52,229 bases of DNA from Candidatus Aenigmatarchaeota archaeon. Its GTDB lineage: Archaea > Aenigmatarchaeota > Aenigmatarchaeia > JACPZZ01. The stretch's first letter is position 1. Each line of letters starts with the position of its first letter. Below, piece by piece: positions 5,491 to 30,021 of this stretch. Below the pieces are notes generated by a model that saw only the letters and a program-made list of their open reading frames with translations, did no database searches and had not been told where the DNA came from. The stretch covers positions 1 to 52,229 of the forward strand of contig JACPZZ010000029.1 in assembly GCA_016195275.1 (NCBI GenBank), in the 5' to 3' direction. The position numbers and the translations under genes are program-made.

Positions 5491-5619
5491 GTCTGGCTGG
5501 CGGCCAAAGCGGAAGGGAAACATCCGTACCCATATCGAACACGGCAATTAAGACTTCCTGCGATCTAAGCTGTAGTTGGATGCAATATCCTGCGAAACTT
5601 AGGACGCTGCCTGCCGCCT
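5491..5619 (+). rRNA. rrf: 5S ribosomal RNA
   Basis: The segment GGCGGCCAAAGCGG is followed by the highly conserved CATCCGTACCC and CGAACACGG blocks, which are diagnostic of 5S rRNA. The 5' strand at 5494-5504 pairs with 5606-5616 to close helix I with one mismatch. A T-run at 5619-5623 follows the 3' end and could terminate transcription. No 16S or 23S gene is adjacent, so this 5S is unlinked from the other rRNAs within this window and sits beside tRNA genes. Ends are accurate to a few nucleotides. Confidence 0.92.
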
Positions 5620-5709
5620 TTTTAAAAAAAGGTCAAGTAAAAATGTTCATCCGCCGGTGGTAAATTATTATAAAAAAATCTGATTTGGTTGCAATTTCTG
5701 TTAAGCAAA

Positions 5710-5951
5710 GCCTGGGTAGTGTAGCGGTCTACCACGCGGGACTGTCAAATAAAATCCCTTTCTTTTTCGAAGAAAGGTCTTTTAAACAAAGGAAACCTTT
5801 GGTTCCCTTGCACAGTTTTGCTGTTGCAAAACCTGTGACCCCAAAGAAAACGAACGATCATACAGGGAAAGATAGACCGGTAAGAAAACCGCAGGTTTTC
5901 TTGCGGTACAGAACTCCCGTAACCCGGGTTCAAATCCCGGCCCAGGCGCCA
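5710..5951 (+). tRNA. tRNA-Asp (GTC) with a 166-nt intron and encoded CCA
   Basis: Exon 1 (5710-5747) gives acceptor GCCTGGG, a D-arm and the anticodon arm ending in GTC-A37. Exon 2 (5914-5951) gives CTCCCG, the T-arm with loop TTCAAAT, acceptor CCCAGGC, G73 and CCA. The intron 5748-5913 sits at canonical position 37/38. A textbook BHB is visible: exon CTGT (32-35) pairs with intron ACAG (5908-5911), with 3-nt bulges CA|A and AA|C marking the cuts. The intron holds several short hairpins, for example a perfect 9-bp stem at 5882-5902. Confidence 0.93.
5748..5913 (+). repeat. Hairpin array filling the tRNA-Asp intron
   Basis: Hairpins in order: 5758-5776 (7 bp), 5787-5801 (6 bp), 5811-5836 (TTTTGC/GCAAAA core, imperfect outside) and 5882-5902 (9 bp, loop GCA). 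The last stem, AAGAAAACC/GGTTTTCTT, belongs to the AAAACC/GGTTTT family that recurs elsewhere in the window. Confidence 0.7.
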
Positions 5952-5959
5952 AACCATAT

Positions 5960-6008
5960 ATTAGAAAACCATTCAGGTTTTCTAATTGAGAAAACCGCGG
6001 GTTTTTCC
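5960..6008 (+). repeat. Two hairpins between tRNA-Asp and tRNA-Lys
   Basis: 5960-5986 is a perfect 11-bp hairpin, stem ATTAGAAAACC with loop ATTCA. 5988-6008 is a GAAAACC-type hairpin with loop GCG. The first stem is identical to that of the hairpin at 29836-29860, which has a different loop (TTG). They lie outside the mature tRNAs, in what is probably the shared precursor. Confidence 0.75.
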
Positions 6009-23603: not shown

Positions 23604-23613
23604 GCCTTTAAAT
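23604..23613 (+). promoter_or_regulatory. Probable TATA box of tRNA-Ser
   Basis: GCCTTTAAATTC begins about 30-36 nt before the tRNA 5' end at 23640. Confidence 0.5.
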
Positions 23614-23656
23614 TCAAACCAGTTTAATTCTTTGTATTTGCTGCGATAGCCAAGTC

Positions 23657-23694
23657 AGGTTCAGGCGACTGAAGCAGACATGGTCTGCTTCTAG
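23657..23694 (+). other. D-loop insertion in tRNA-Ser, probable second intron
   Basis: The insertion has a perfect 9-bp hairpin (GAAGCAGAC/GTCTGCTTC, loop ATG) flanked by ACT and TAG, plus an alternative small stem TTCAG/CTGAA closed by GCGA. If not spliced, the D-loop would be about 50 nt long. The same ACT-GAA...TTC-TAGC frame surrounds the hairpin at 50655-50675. Confidence 0.6.
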
Positions 23695-23723
23695 CGGCCA
23701 AAGGCGCTGGTCTGGAATGTATA

Positions 23724-23908
23724 GGAACAAGTTGTTCGCAGGGGAGTAGTTTTCCAAAAGGAAACTATTGCAATTTACAAGGTAAACCCGATGGGTTTAC
23801 CTGTACAGTTTTTGCAAAAGCAAAAACTTGTACCTTCAGGTGGATTGCAAACGTGTGTTTGCTAGTTTACCAGTGGTAAACTGCAGCAGTTTTGCTCAAA
23901 GCAAAACT
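23724..23908 (+). repeat. Array of seven hairpins in the tRNA-Ser anticodon-loop intron
   Basis: In order: 23725-23737; 23747-23767; 23780-23802 (10 bp, AGGTAAACCC); 23807-23828 (9 bp, AGTTTTTGC, extendable outward to 23803-23833); 23847-23862 (6 bp); 23864-23882 (8 bp, AGTTTACC); 23888-23908 (8 bp, AGTTTTGC). Most are perfect, with loops mainly of 3-5 nt. Nearly the whole intron is base-paired into side-by-side stems. Confidence 0.85.
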
Positions 23909-23976
23909 AGCTTTCCTGCGACCAGAGAGCCAGTGTGCGCAAGCACGCGGGGGTTCAAATCCCTCTCGCAGCGTTT

Positions 23977-24060
23977 ATGAAACTCGAAAAGAAATGCCTG
24001 ATCTGCGGCAAAAAAGGCCACTGGCTGGTTGGATGCAAGTTTGAAAAGAAGTTTGATTAG
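23977..24060 (+). CDS. 27-residue CCHC zinc-knuckle microprotein
   Basis: The ATG lies 3 nt after the tRNA-Ser 3' end. The product begins MKLEKKCLICGKKGHWLVGC and ends KFEKKFD. It fits the zinc-knuckle spacing C-x2-C-x4-H-x4-C exactly (Cys7, Cys10, His15, Cys20), with the Gly-Lys-Lys-Gly-His core and an aromatic after His, as in single-stranded nucleic-acid-binding CCHC proteins. Basic flanks fit RNA binding. The coincidence of an exact motif with ATG and stop in 27 codons supports a real gene. Function is inference. Confidence 0.6.
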   Translation: MKLEKKCLICGKKGHWLVGCKFEKKFD

Positions 24061-24111: not shown

Positions 24112-24702
24112 ATGAAAAAAGAAACCGCAATTTTCGCTGTCTTGACCGCCTTAATTGCTTTTTTCATATCAACAGGCACGATGGCGAGCAAGGAAAACGG
24201 AATAAAAATGGATGGGATTGTAATTTTGGAAACTTCCAACGGGAATATAGAAATACAGTTAGACAGCGCGCATGCGCCGATAACGGTTGCAAATTTCCTG
24301 AAATATGTCAACGAAGGGTTTTACAACGGCACGATATTCCATCGGGCTATTCCAAATTTCATGGCACAGGCCGGTGGTTTTACGAGTGACGGCACGGAAA
24401 AACAAACGCACGAACCGATAAAACTCGAGTCTAACAACGGTTTGAGCAACAAACGCGGGATGATTGCGATGGCCCGGACAAACGATCCGGACAGTGCAAC
24501 AAGCCAGTTCTTTATCAATGTGGCTGACAATTATTTCCTTGATTATGGCCGCGGCAATGATGGTTATGCCGTTTTTGGAAACGTGACAAAGGGCATGGAT
24601 GTTGCGGATGCGATTGTTTCTGTTAAAACAGGCGACAGGGGCTTTTTTTCAGACTGGCCGGTAGAGGATATCATTATCAAAGGCGCCTATGTTAAAAAGT
24701 AA
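24112..24702 (+). CDS. Secreted or membrane-anchored cyclophilin (peptidyl-prolyl isomerase)
   Basis: 196 residues. An N-terminal hydrophobic segment (about residues 4-25) acts as signal or anchor. The cyclophilin core follows: APITVANFLKYVNEGFYNG, FHRAIPNFMAQAGGF (catalytic Arg), ARTNDPDSATSQFFINVADN. It resembles compact bacterial PpiA/PpiB-type enzymes and was probably acquired from bacteria. It would assist folding of exported proteins such as the surface proteins here. A TATA-like TTAATATATTAA lies near 24070. Confidence 0.93.
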   Translation: MKKETAIFAVLTALIAFFISTGTMASKENGIKMDGIVILETSNGNIEIQLDSAHAPITVANFLKYVNEGFYNGTIFHRAIPNFMAQAGGFTSDGTEKQTHEPIKLESNNGLSNKRGMIAMARTNDPDSATSQFFINVADNYFLDYGRGNDGYAVFGNVTKGMDVADAIVSVKTGDRGFFSDWPVEDIIIKGAYVKK

Positions 24703-24745: not shown

Positions 24746-25939
24746 ATGAATTTTGAGGATTTGCAGCTAAAACCGGAACTGCTTAAAGCTGTTACAGAGC
24801 TTGGTTTTACGGAATTGACAGAGATACAGCAGAAATGCATACCTGAAATACGCGGCGGCAGGGATGTTGTCGGCCAGTCAAGCACCGGATCGGGCAAAAC
24901 AGCCGCGTTCGGGCTTCCGATACTCGAAAAAATCGAACATGGAAAGGGCATACAGTCTTTGATTGTGACGCCGACACGCGAGTTGTGCGTACAGGTAACA
25001 GATGCTTTGCGTAGCTTCGGTAGGTTCATGCACACCAATGTTGCGAGCGTGTTCGGCGGCGTCAGTATCGAACCGCAGATAACCGCGGTGCGCACAGCTG
25101 ATATTGTTGTCGGGACGCCCGGACGTATTCTGGACCACATGGAACGAAGGACGATCAATTTCCAAAACGTGCGCTTTTTAGTCATCGACGAAGCGGACAA
25201 AATGTTTGAAATGGGGTTCATAGAAGACGTTGAGCGCATAATAAAACAAACGCCACAAAACAGGCAGACTTTATTATTCAGCGCTACTATACCGGCAGAG
25301 GTGAGGCACATAGTCGAGCGCCATCTTAATTCACCAGTAACGATTAAGGGCGTGATTTATGTTGATACGAGCCTGCTCAGGCACGTTTATTATGATATAA
25401 AGCCCCACGACAAATTTTCTTTGTTAGTTCACCTGTTGAAGCAAAACAAGGAAGGCATTGCGCTTGTTTTCTGCGCCACAAGGCACGAAGTCGACGCTGT
25501 TGCGGAAAACCTCAAGTCGCAGGGGATAAACGCAGAAGCCATACACGGCGGCATGGAGCAGAACAGGCGTTTGCGATCTGTCGAAGCTTTGAAAAACGAA
25601 ACGATAAACGTGTTAGTCGCAACTGATGTCGCTGCGCGCGGACTTGACATAAGAAATGTATCGCATGTGTACAATTACGACGTTCCCAAATCCTCCTCGG
25701 ATTACATACATCGCGTTGGCCGCACCGCGCGCGCAGGCGGTGAAGGCGATGCTGTCACATTGTTGTCTGAACGCGATCATGATAACTTCTCGCGGATTTT
25801 GCGCGACAGAAGTTTGAAAATTGCAAGAACTGAAAAGCCGGAAATTGAACGCGTCCAGTTTAAACGCGCGGAAAGGCGCGGCCGTTTTGGCAGCCGGGGT
25901 TTCCGAAAACCTGGTTTCCACAGAAGGCCGAGATATTAA
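24746..25939 (+). CDS. DEAD-box RNA helicase
   Basis: 397 residues with all motifs: Q motif region TEIQQKCIP, motif I STGSGKT (about residue 48), Ia PTREL, GG, TPGR, motif II DEAD (about 149), III SAT, and VI HRVGRTARAG. The C-terminal tail (about residues 365-397) is basic and Arg/Gly/Phe-rich, as in helicases that bind structured RNA. Given the hairpin-dense tRNA precursors here, an RNA-unwinding enzyme is of interest, but no direct link is shown. Confidence 0.96.
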   Translation: MNFEDLQLKPELLKAVTELGFTELTEIQQKCIPEIRGGRDVVGQSSTGSGKTAAFGLPILEKIEHGKGIQSLIVTPTRELCVQVTDALRSFGRFMHTNVASVFGGVSIEPQITAVRTADIVVGTPGRILDHMERRTINFQNVRFLVIDEADKMFEMGFIEDVERIIKQTPQNRQTLLFSATIPAEVRHIVERHLNSPVTIKGVIYVDTSLLRHVYYDIKPHDKFSLLVHLLKQNKEGIALVFCATRHEVDAVAENLKSQGINAEAIHGGMEQNRRLRSVEALKNETINVLVATDVAARGLDIRNVSHVYNYDVPKSSSDYIHRVGRTARAGGEGDAVTLLSERDHDNFSRILRDRSLKIARTEKPEIERVQFKRAERRGRFGSRGFRKPGFHRRPRY

Positions 25940-29492: not shown

Positions 29493-29516
29493 GCGCCTTG
29501 AATTTCTTGCTGTTGT

Positions 29517-29750
29517 ATGAATTCTATGCCCGGTTATATAACCAAATATTTGAACGGGACTAAAGTGCGGACAGGCCAAAAAAGGAGACCTTTAGAGACT
29601 ACTAATAAACAAATGGAAAAATACAAATTAAGGGTAACAAGAAAACAGGGCGTTTATTCGGTGGTGCGAAACGGCAAAAGAACGCTTATAAAGGCTATCC
29701 TATATTATAATTTGGTACAATTACATTCGATGTTTGATCGAATTTATTAA
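29517..29750 (+). CDS. Doubtful basic 77-residue ORF
   Basis: Starts MNSMPGYITKYLNGTKVRTG and is very basic; an alternative start at 29613 gives 46 residues beginning MEKYKLRVTRKQG. Its last third overlaps the probable L3 promoter (29685-29694) and a hairpin at 29725-29743, so part of it must serve other purposes. No family recognised. Confidence 0.3.
   Translation: MNSMPGYITKYLNGTKVRTGQKRRPLETTNKQMEKYKLRVTRKQGVYSVVRNGKRTLIKAILYYNLVQLHSMFDRIY
29685..29694 (+). promoter_or_regulatory. Probable TATA box of the L3 operon leader
   Basis: CTTATAAAGG followed by an A/T-rich stretch resembles the 5S promoter region. Initiation about 25 nt on (near 29715) would give a leader of about 325 nt before rpl3. 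Confidence 0.5.
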
Positions 29751-30021
29751 AAGGGCGATAAAACCCTGCGGTTTTGGTTCCCGCGCGGTTCGAATGCCCT
29801 CAAACCAAAAACCACAAGTGCTGGCGTGGTTCTGGATTAGAAAACCTTGGGTTTTCTAATTTAGTAAACCTTTATGGTTTACTAAACTTAGAAGTTTAAA
29901 CGCTTCTTAGGTGCAGTTTTTGACTAGATGTAGGAAACTTTGTTTCCTATGCACGGCTGCAAGTTTGCCCTAAGGCAAACTGCAACAGTTTTGCCATGCA
30001 AAACTTGTTTGCAGTGCAAAC
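29725..30021 (+). repeat. Hairpin array in the rpl3 leader
   Basis: Hairpins in order: 29725-29743 (7 bp), 29760-29775 (6 bp), 29836-29860 (11 bp), 29860-29886 (11 bp), 29888-29910 (one mismatch), 29931-29949 (8 bp), 29962-29981 (8 bp), 29987-30005 (8 bp), 30007-30021 (6 bp). Most are perfect with 3-5-nt loops. The pair at 29962-30005 closely matches the tRNA-Ser intron pair at 23864-23908, including the spacer GCARC between them. A lone TTCGAAT at 29789-29795 looks like a T-loop, but no tRNA can be folded. No ORF is present. Confidence 0.75.

Follow-up and report, generated by a model that had tools for sequence, protein, structure and literature searches.

A lone CCHC zinc knuckle as an entire 27-residue archaeal protein, with relatives in ammonia-oxidising archaea

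The window—52,229 nucleotides forming positions 1 to 52,229 of contig JACPZZ010000029.1 (assembly GCA_016195275.1)—comes from a Candidatus Aenigmatarchaeota genome of ~1.07 Mb that is 83% complete. Between a tRNA-Ser gene and a cyclophilin gene it carries an open reading frame (ORF) encoding MKLEKKCLICGKKGHWLVGCKFEKKFD, in which C7-x2-C10-x4-H15-x4-C20 gives the exact C-x2-C-x4-H-x4-C pattern of a zinc knuckle. Our analysis concerns this ORF, which probably encodes a free-standing single-knuckle microprotein with a general RNA-binding or RNA-chaperone role. Its features are as follows.

23977–24060, + strand: 27-residue microprotein gene, ATG to TAG; a single CCHC zinc knuckle between lysine-rich flanks
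23995–24036, + strand: knuckle codons, overall span; ligands invariant across relatives
23995–23997, + strand: C7 codon
23998–24000, + strand: L8 codon, putative guanine-cleft residue by analogy with PMC7599994
24004–24006, + strand: C10 codon
24019–24021, + strand: H15 codon
24022–24024, + strand: W16 codon, putative guanine-cleft residue by analogy with PMC7599994
24034–24036, + strand: C20 codon

An earlier note had described a 27-residue ORF with an exact knuckle, 3 nt behind tRNA-Ser, and had taken it for a real microprotein below the usual gene-calling limits; the coordinates agree with the former, and the comparisons below uphold the latter. The ORF also has the G-x2-G-H typical of classical zinc knuckles. 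No other M-started frame on either strand of the window has the exact CCHC spacing; in 60 versions of the window generated by a first-order Markov model, such frames averaged 0.05 and none had CxxCGxxGHxxxxC. We dropped a longer, 41-residue reading from a GTG at 23935, which starts inside the tRNA and whose upstream part is not common to relatives.

In a search of 60 related genomes, orthologues were recovered from two of four congeneric genomes (E 1e-11 to 1e-12), with 84% identity to the window peptide over 25 residues. They are 26–27 residues long and read MKIEKKCFICGKKGHWLVGCRFERKK in G004 (JACQNZ010000006.1) and MKLEKKCFICGKKGHWLMGCGFDKKKP in G001 (JACOVS010000004.1); the named congeners are Candidatus Aenigmatarchaeota metagenome-assembled genomes of groundwater origin. 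Over 25 codons, the three pairs formed by the window, G001 and G004 show 11, 11 and 16 changes at third positions but only 6, 4 and 5 at the first two. The proportion of changed sites is 0.75–1.18 for synonymous sites (pS), which are saturated, versus ~0.09 for nonsynonymous sites (pN). This comparison indicates that the ORF is under strong purifying selection acting on the protein and, since such a codon-position pattern requires selection at the protein level, that it is translated. The three Cys and the His, whose loss in relatives the earlier note had named as grounds for rejection, are unchanged in all relatives aligned, and the orthologues keep their start and stop codons in differing genomic contexts. 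A chance ORF or non-coding sequence might be suspected from the very short length and from the lack of a recognisable Shine-Dalgarno sequence; set against the codon-position pattern, the invariant ligands and the retained start and stop codons, this explanation is left with almost no probability, and the pS/pN comparison refutes it at the sequence level. By these measures the ORF is a genuine gene.

Elsewhere in the class, a 33-residue relative (MGKLKIRCPICGGSDHWLVGCYREKKKKRTASK) was found in G083, from another family. Weaker matches at E 0.01–0.1 (L005, L007, L009, L013–L015, L021, L026, L028 and L030) were dropped because the full CCHC is absent. A census of the class with PF00098 returned good scores only for the two orthologues and for one long ORF with a Gag-like CCHC, and the full motif was absent from the other weak census matches inspected.

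To reach beyond the phylum, we searched a sample of 392 archaeal genomes with a profile of the four Aenigmatarchaeota sequences. This yielded matches in another phylum, where a single genus contributed three species (best per-genome E 5.7e-5, equivalent to ~0.02 for all 392 genomes), and one more match, at E 0.002, in a 1.5-Mb genome. In the phylum of the latter, 55 of 349 genomes match a profile widened by these sequences, nearly all of them from one family. Archaeal AmoA is present in 18 of 19 sampled positives, and the hosts of these relatives are therefore ammonia oxidisers; one genome, G365, is AmoA-positive though negative in the knuckle search. The ammonia-oxidiser proteins (~35 residues, strongly conserved, e.g. 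MEKKDKKCILCGCKDHRLIGCSRHIAKKCSCHVKS) and those of the further phylum resemble the window protein in size, in starting just before the first Cys and in the common core, CxxCG-x3-H-x-L-x-G-C. They differ from it by an extra core Cys, by an added H-x4/5-C-x-C—absent from all four Aenigmatarchaeota proteins and possibly a second metal site—and by the residue after the His, which is mostly Arg or Lys in these proteins, Trp in G187 and G207, and Trp16 in the window. One match, in G379 (L106), was dropped because of an internal stop.

A discriminating profile was then built from ammonia-oxidiser rows only, with no Aenigmatarchaeota rows. It gives the window peptide 25.5 bits and its relatives 22.6–27.8, versus 2.0–3.6 for the knuckles of human immunodeficiency virus (HIV) NCp7 and 3.3 for the Gag-like knuckle; of 2000 decoys generated for each protein with its ligand positions and composition preserved, none reaches the real score. 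The window protein, well below ~45 residues, thus shares the core motif beyond its ligands. Because the relatives were picked by likeness, common descent is not proved by this test alone. Intermediate forms exist, however, in G187 (CIICGCRKHWLIGC) and in G083 (DHWLVGC), and for this reason we consider it likely, from the sequences, that the Aenigmatarchaeota and ammonia-oxidiser forms descend from a common ancestor. Neither profile found a relative in viral contigs, nor did the phages and plasmids searched hold one, and so nothing points to an origin in viruses or plasmids.

The earlier note had called archaeal single-knuckle microproteins little described, and the window protein is indeed uncatalogued in Pfam, NCBIfam and PHROGs: no library searched matches it above its curated cut-off, and NCBIfam and PHROGs gave nothing above chance. 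It has the ligand spacing of zf-CCHC (PF00098); with this family and zf-CCHC_2 (PF13696) it shares that spacing and the first 11–12 positions, whereas the second half diverges. The Cys-rich peptide family TIGR04165 (cut-off 60 bits) was rejected, with no match to the window and 14 bits for the G083 relative. The nearest solved sequences by profile are the HIV NCp7 knuckles (E 0.008). Retroviral nucleocapsid (NC) knuckles, both those of NCp7 and the single one of Moloney murine leukaemia virus (MoMuLV), are like the window protein in their C-x2-C-x4-H-x4-C with G-x2-G-H between, in their basic flanks, and in an aromatic or aliphatic residue after the first Cys and after the His, at the guanine-cleft positions. 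Unlike them, the window protein is nothing but its knuckle, with no Gag and no virus, and it has a conserved H-W-L-x-G-C that retroviral knuckles lack; we see no evidence of common descent between the two. The haloarchaeal C(P)XCG micro-proteins (HVO_0758, HVO_2753, Brz), as defined in PMC11241148, are likewise free-standing archaeal mini zinc proteins, but the window protein has only one CxxCG, which its H and C complete to a knuckle pattern. In the literature searched, which leaves most subscription journals outside its coverage, no lone CCHC knuckle protein with H-x-L-x-G-C is described. Such a knuckle, making up the entire protein and marked by a conserved H-x-L-x-G-C, is a new form of a known type.

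How might so small a protein act? C7, C10, H15 and C20 would bind one Zn(II) and residues 7–20 would fold into the knuckle; Leu/Phe8, Trp16 and Leu17 would form a cleft holding one unpaired guanine, as in retroviral nucleocapsid, and the lysine-rich ends would bind phosphates. In the single knuckle of MoMuLV NC, G309 lies in a cleft of Leu21, Ala27, Trp35 and Ala36, and the cleft of HIV NC uses Phe16, Ile24 and Ala25 (both from PMC7599994, a review). Counting from the ligands (Cys1+1, His+1 and His+2, a placing of our own), the corresponding residues of the window protein and its orthologues are Leu/Phe8, Trp16 and Leu17, with Pro in place of Leu/Phe in G083. This mapping supports a knuckle that binds unpaired guanine in Aenigmatarchaeota, and a role in binding single-stranded RNA is plausible by such residue-level analogy. 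Its role would then be that of a general microprotein for RNA binding or RNA chaperoning, possibly working alongside a DEAD-box helicase, rather than that of a factor for the neighbouring tRNA precursor. RNA-related neighbours do occur: a DEAD-box helicase lies beside the G083 gene and two genes away in genus g1, and a CRM-domain protein is encoded near the G187 and G207 knuckle genes.

Several results weigh against this proposal. The scores for zf-CCHC (13.7 bits for the window, 19.2 and 20.2—the latter in G001—for the orthologues; cut-off 20.8) and for zf-CCHC_2 (19.3 bits, E 0.001; cut-off 27) stay below threshold. The AlphaFold2 model of the G083 relative is of moderate confidence (mean predicted local distance difference test, pLDDT, 72.7), and its Foldseek matches, although mostly to knuckles, namely those of NCp7 (0.9 Å over 16 columns), murine leukaemia virus NC, Lin28 and TUT7, all have E > 1; a model of the ammonia-oxidiser form (pLDDT 63.5) was not used. 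The ammonia-oxidiser proteins have Arg or Lys at His+1, the position of Trp16, and keep Leu at His+2, and we therefore do not extend the guanine-cleft reading to them. The neighbour evidence comes from few cases, in which the two DEAD-box genes may be paralogues. Finally, zinc binding failed in 5 of the 14 haloarchaeal C(P)XCG proteins for which it was tested (PMC11241148), for which reason it is not to be assumed here. Taking both sides together, we hold the predicted zinc binding to be very probable, the analogy-based single-stranded RNA binding to be an even call, and a general chaperone-like role near RNA helicases, given how few the RNA-related neighbours are, to be doubtful.

The main rival to an RNA-binding function is that the protein belongs to something larger—the ribosome, RNA polymerase or the product of an overlapping gene—as a small zinc-binding subunit or accessory, its knuckle contacting protein instead of RNA. 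Subunits of complexes occur among other tiny archaeal zinc proteins, and HxLxGC forms a conserved surface absent from generic RNA-binding knuckles. Moreover, a conserved ~124-residue helical ORF overlaps or adjoins the gene in most ammonia oxidisers examined, often through ATGA, and in G207 and G247 the gene overlaps a 147-residue ORF that reads as a coiled coil. Yet these partner ORFs are not conserved between phyla, no protein gene precedes the knuckle gene in the window, and its sparse presence in the class speaks against a core subunit; nor is there any match to solved archaeal ribosome or polymerase chains, the best Protein Data Bank matches of the wide profile being retroviral and weak. 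We regard a complex subunit as rather unlikely. Less probable still is a metal buffer or sensor, that is, a small thiol peptide holding or handing over Zn or Cu: the ammonia-oxidiser form does pack eight possible ligands into ~25 residues, but the window form has one four-ligand site only and conserves the non-ligand G, H-W-L and G, and no metal-transport gene was recognised adjacent.

The ammonia-oxidiser loci have other small ORFs. Across L070–L099 the ~124-residue helical ORF scores just under the Spectrin_7 cut-off, and beyond it lies a conserved ORF of 103–115 residues on the other strand. At L067, the knuckle gene is followed ~105 nt downstream by a small Cys-rich ORF (MTNGCECGICDHRTEEECRKKECKCCLNFHERSGPKRK; 1329–1445, +) encoded on the opposite strand.

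Around the microprotein gene, the window is arranged as follows.

23607–23614, + strand: TATA-like TTTAAATT, ~26–33 nt ahead of the tRNA (direct reading)
23640–23973, + strand: tRNA-Ser(GGA) gene, interrupted by two introns; neighbour on the upstream side, outside the conserved microprotein unit
23660–23697, + strand: D-loop intron, approximate boundaries
23718–23918, + strand: anticodon-loop intron, boundaries within a few bases; conserved core, variable hairpins
24112–24702, + strand: cyclophilin-type peptidyl-prolyl isomerase (PF00160); downstream neighbour, kept in G001 and G004
24746–25939, + strand: DEAD-box RNA helicase (Pfam); next gene downstream of the cyclophilin, likewise present in G001 and G004

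ARAGORN reads the tRNA-Ser(GGA) once both introns are removed by hand; on the unspliced gene with long introns allowed it finds nothing, and on the whole window it reports zero tRNAs. Only TTT separates the discriminator base from the ATG. No TATA-like box was seen immediately 5′ of the ATG, which suggests transcription of the microprotein gene of the window from the likely tRNA promoter, TTTAAATT; tRNA and microprotein are likely co-transcribed in this genome, and tRNA 3′ processing would seem to leave a near-leaderless message. The earlier note had read this arrangement as a fusion to the tRNA transcript and, because such knuckles bind single-stranded RNA, had suggested a possible action on the hairpin-rich precursor. 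The adjacency and the two introns are there, but the tight spacing is confined to the window, and none of the results connects the protein with that precursor. The block from tRNA-Ser to cyclophilin is kept in all four congeners where both were found, and a DEAD-box helicase follows wherever the downstream side was read, namely in the window, G001 and G004. However, whereas the knuckle of the window starts 3 nt after tRNA-Ser, G001 has 1480 nt and G004 2947 nt between the two, with other genes in the interval (in G004, a PD-(D/E)XK ORF and an IS200-like transposase). G003 retains the tRNA-Ser with its long intron, and cyclophilin 1.7 kb away, and has no knuckle gene between them, nor a match elsewhere in its 80%-complete genome. 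Outside the genus, the knuckle genes of G083 and of the ammonia oxidisers stand beside other genes, not tRNA-Ser; the G083 gene is directly preceded by a DEAD-box helicase 39% identical to that of the window. That the protein serves the tRNA-Ser precursor as a factor, sharing its transcript and binding the hairpin-rich intron, would fit the 3-nt spacing, the probable co-transcription and the presence of the knuckle gene in the same block in three of the four congeners with the tRNA; in view of the distances, the knuckle-less G003 locus and the different neighbours beyond the genus, it is very improbable. Judged by gene order, the position right behind the tRNA is a local accident, not a matter of function, and serves as an example of an accidental tRNA neighbourhood.

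The knuckle proteins add a family unlisted by gene callers and by the libraries searched, with hosts that include archaea important to the nitrogen cycle as well as tiny uncultured genomes. If RNA binding is true, they are among the smallest complete RNA-binding proteins, and the cellular role of a lone zinc knuckle becomes addressable in culturable ammonia-oxidising archaea. More speculatively, and on present evidence improbably as a whole, an unrecognised archaeal family of 26–45 residues, near-universal in some ammonia-oxidiser genera and also found in small DPANN-type genomes, would be the cellular counterpart of retroviral nucleocapsid, a minimal one-knuckle RNA chaperone.

The surroundings of the tRNA are variable. 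Gene content between tRNA-Ser and cyclophilin differs per congener (L037 53–3000, L038 1520–3000 and L043), marking an insertion hot spot behind the tRNA. Two further 500-nt bins of the window, 5500–6000 and 29500–30000, hold 5 and 6 short perfect hairpins, versus 5 at the tRNA-Ser intron; since ARAGORN reports no tRNA in the window at all, they are possibly further intron-bearing tRNA genes. The D-loop intron measures ~36–38 nt in the window and in G004; it is far longer in G001, and G003 lacks it. In the anticodon-loop intron, which matched nothing in an Rfam search, variation is confined to inserted hairpins, of which the window has most. Its ~100-nt core (AATGTATAGGAACAAGTTGTYCGCRGG..AGTRGTTTTCCAAAAG) is near-invariant in four congeners and conserved almost as the exons are, in contrast to the saturated synonymous sites of the ORF nearby; this core may hold a functional RNA.
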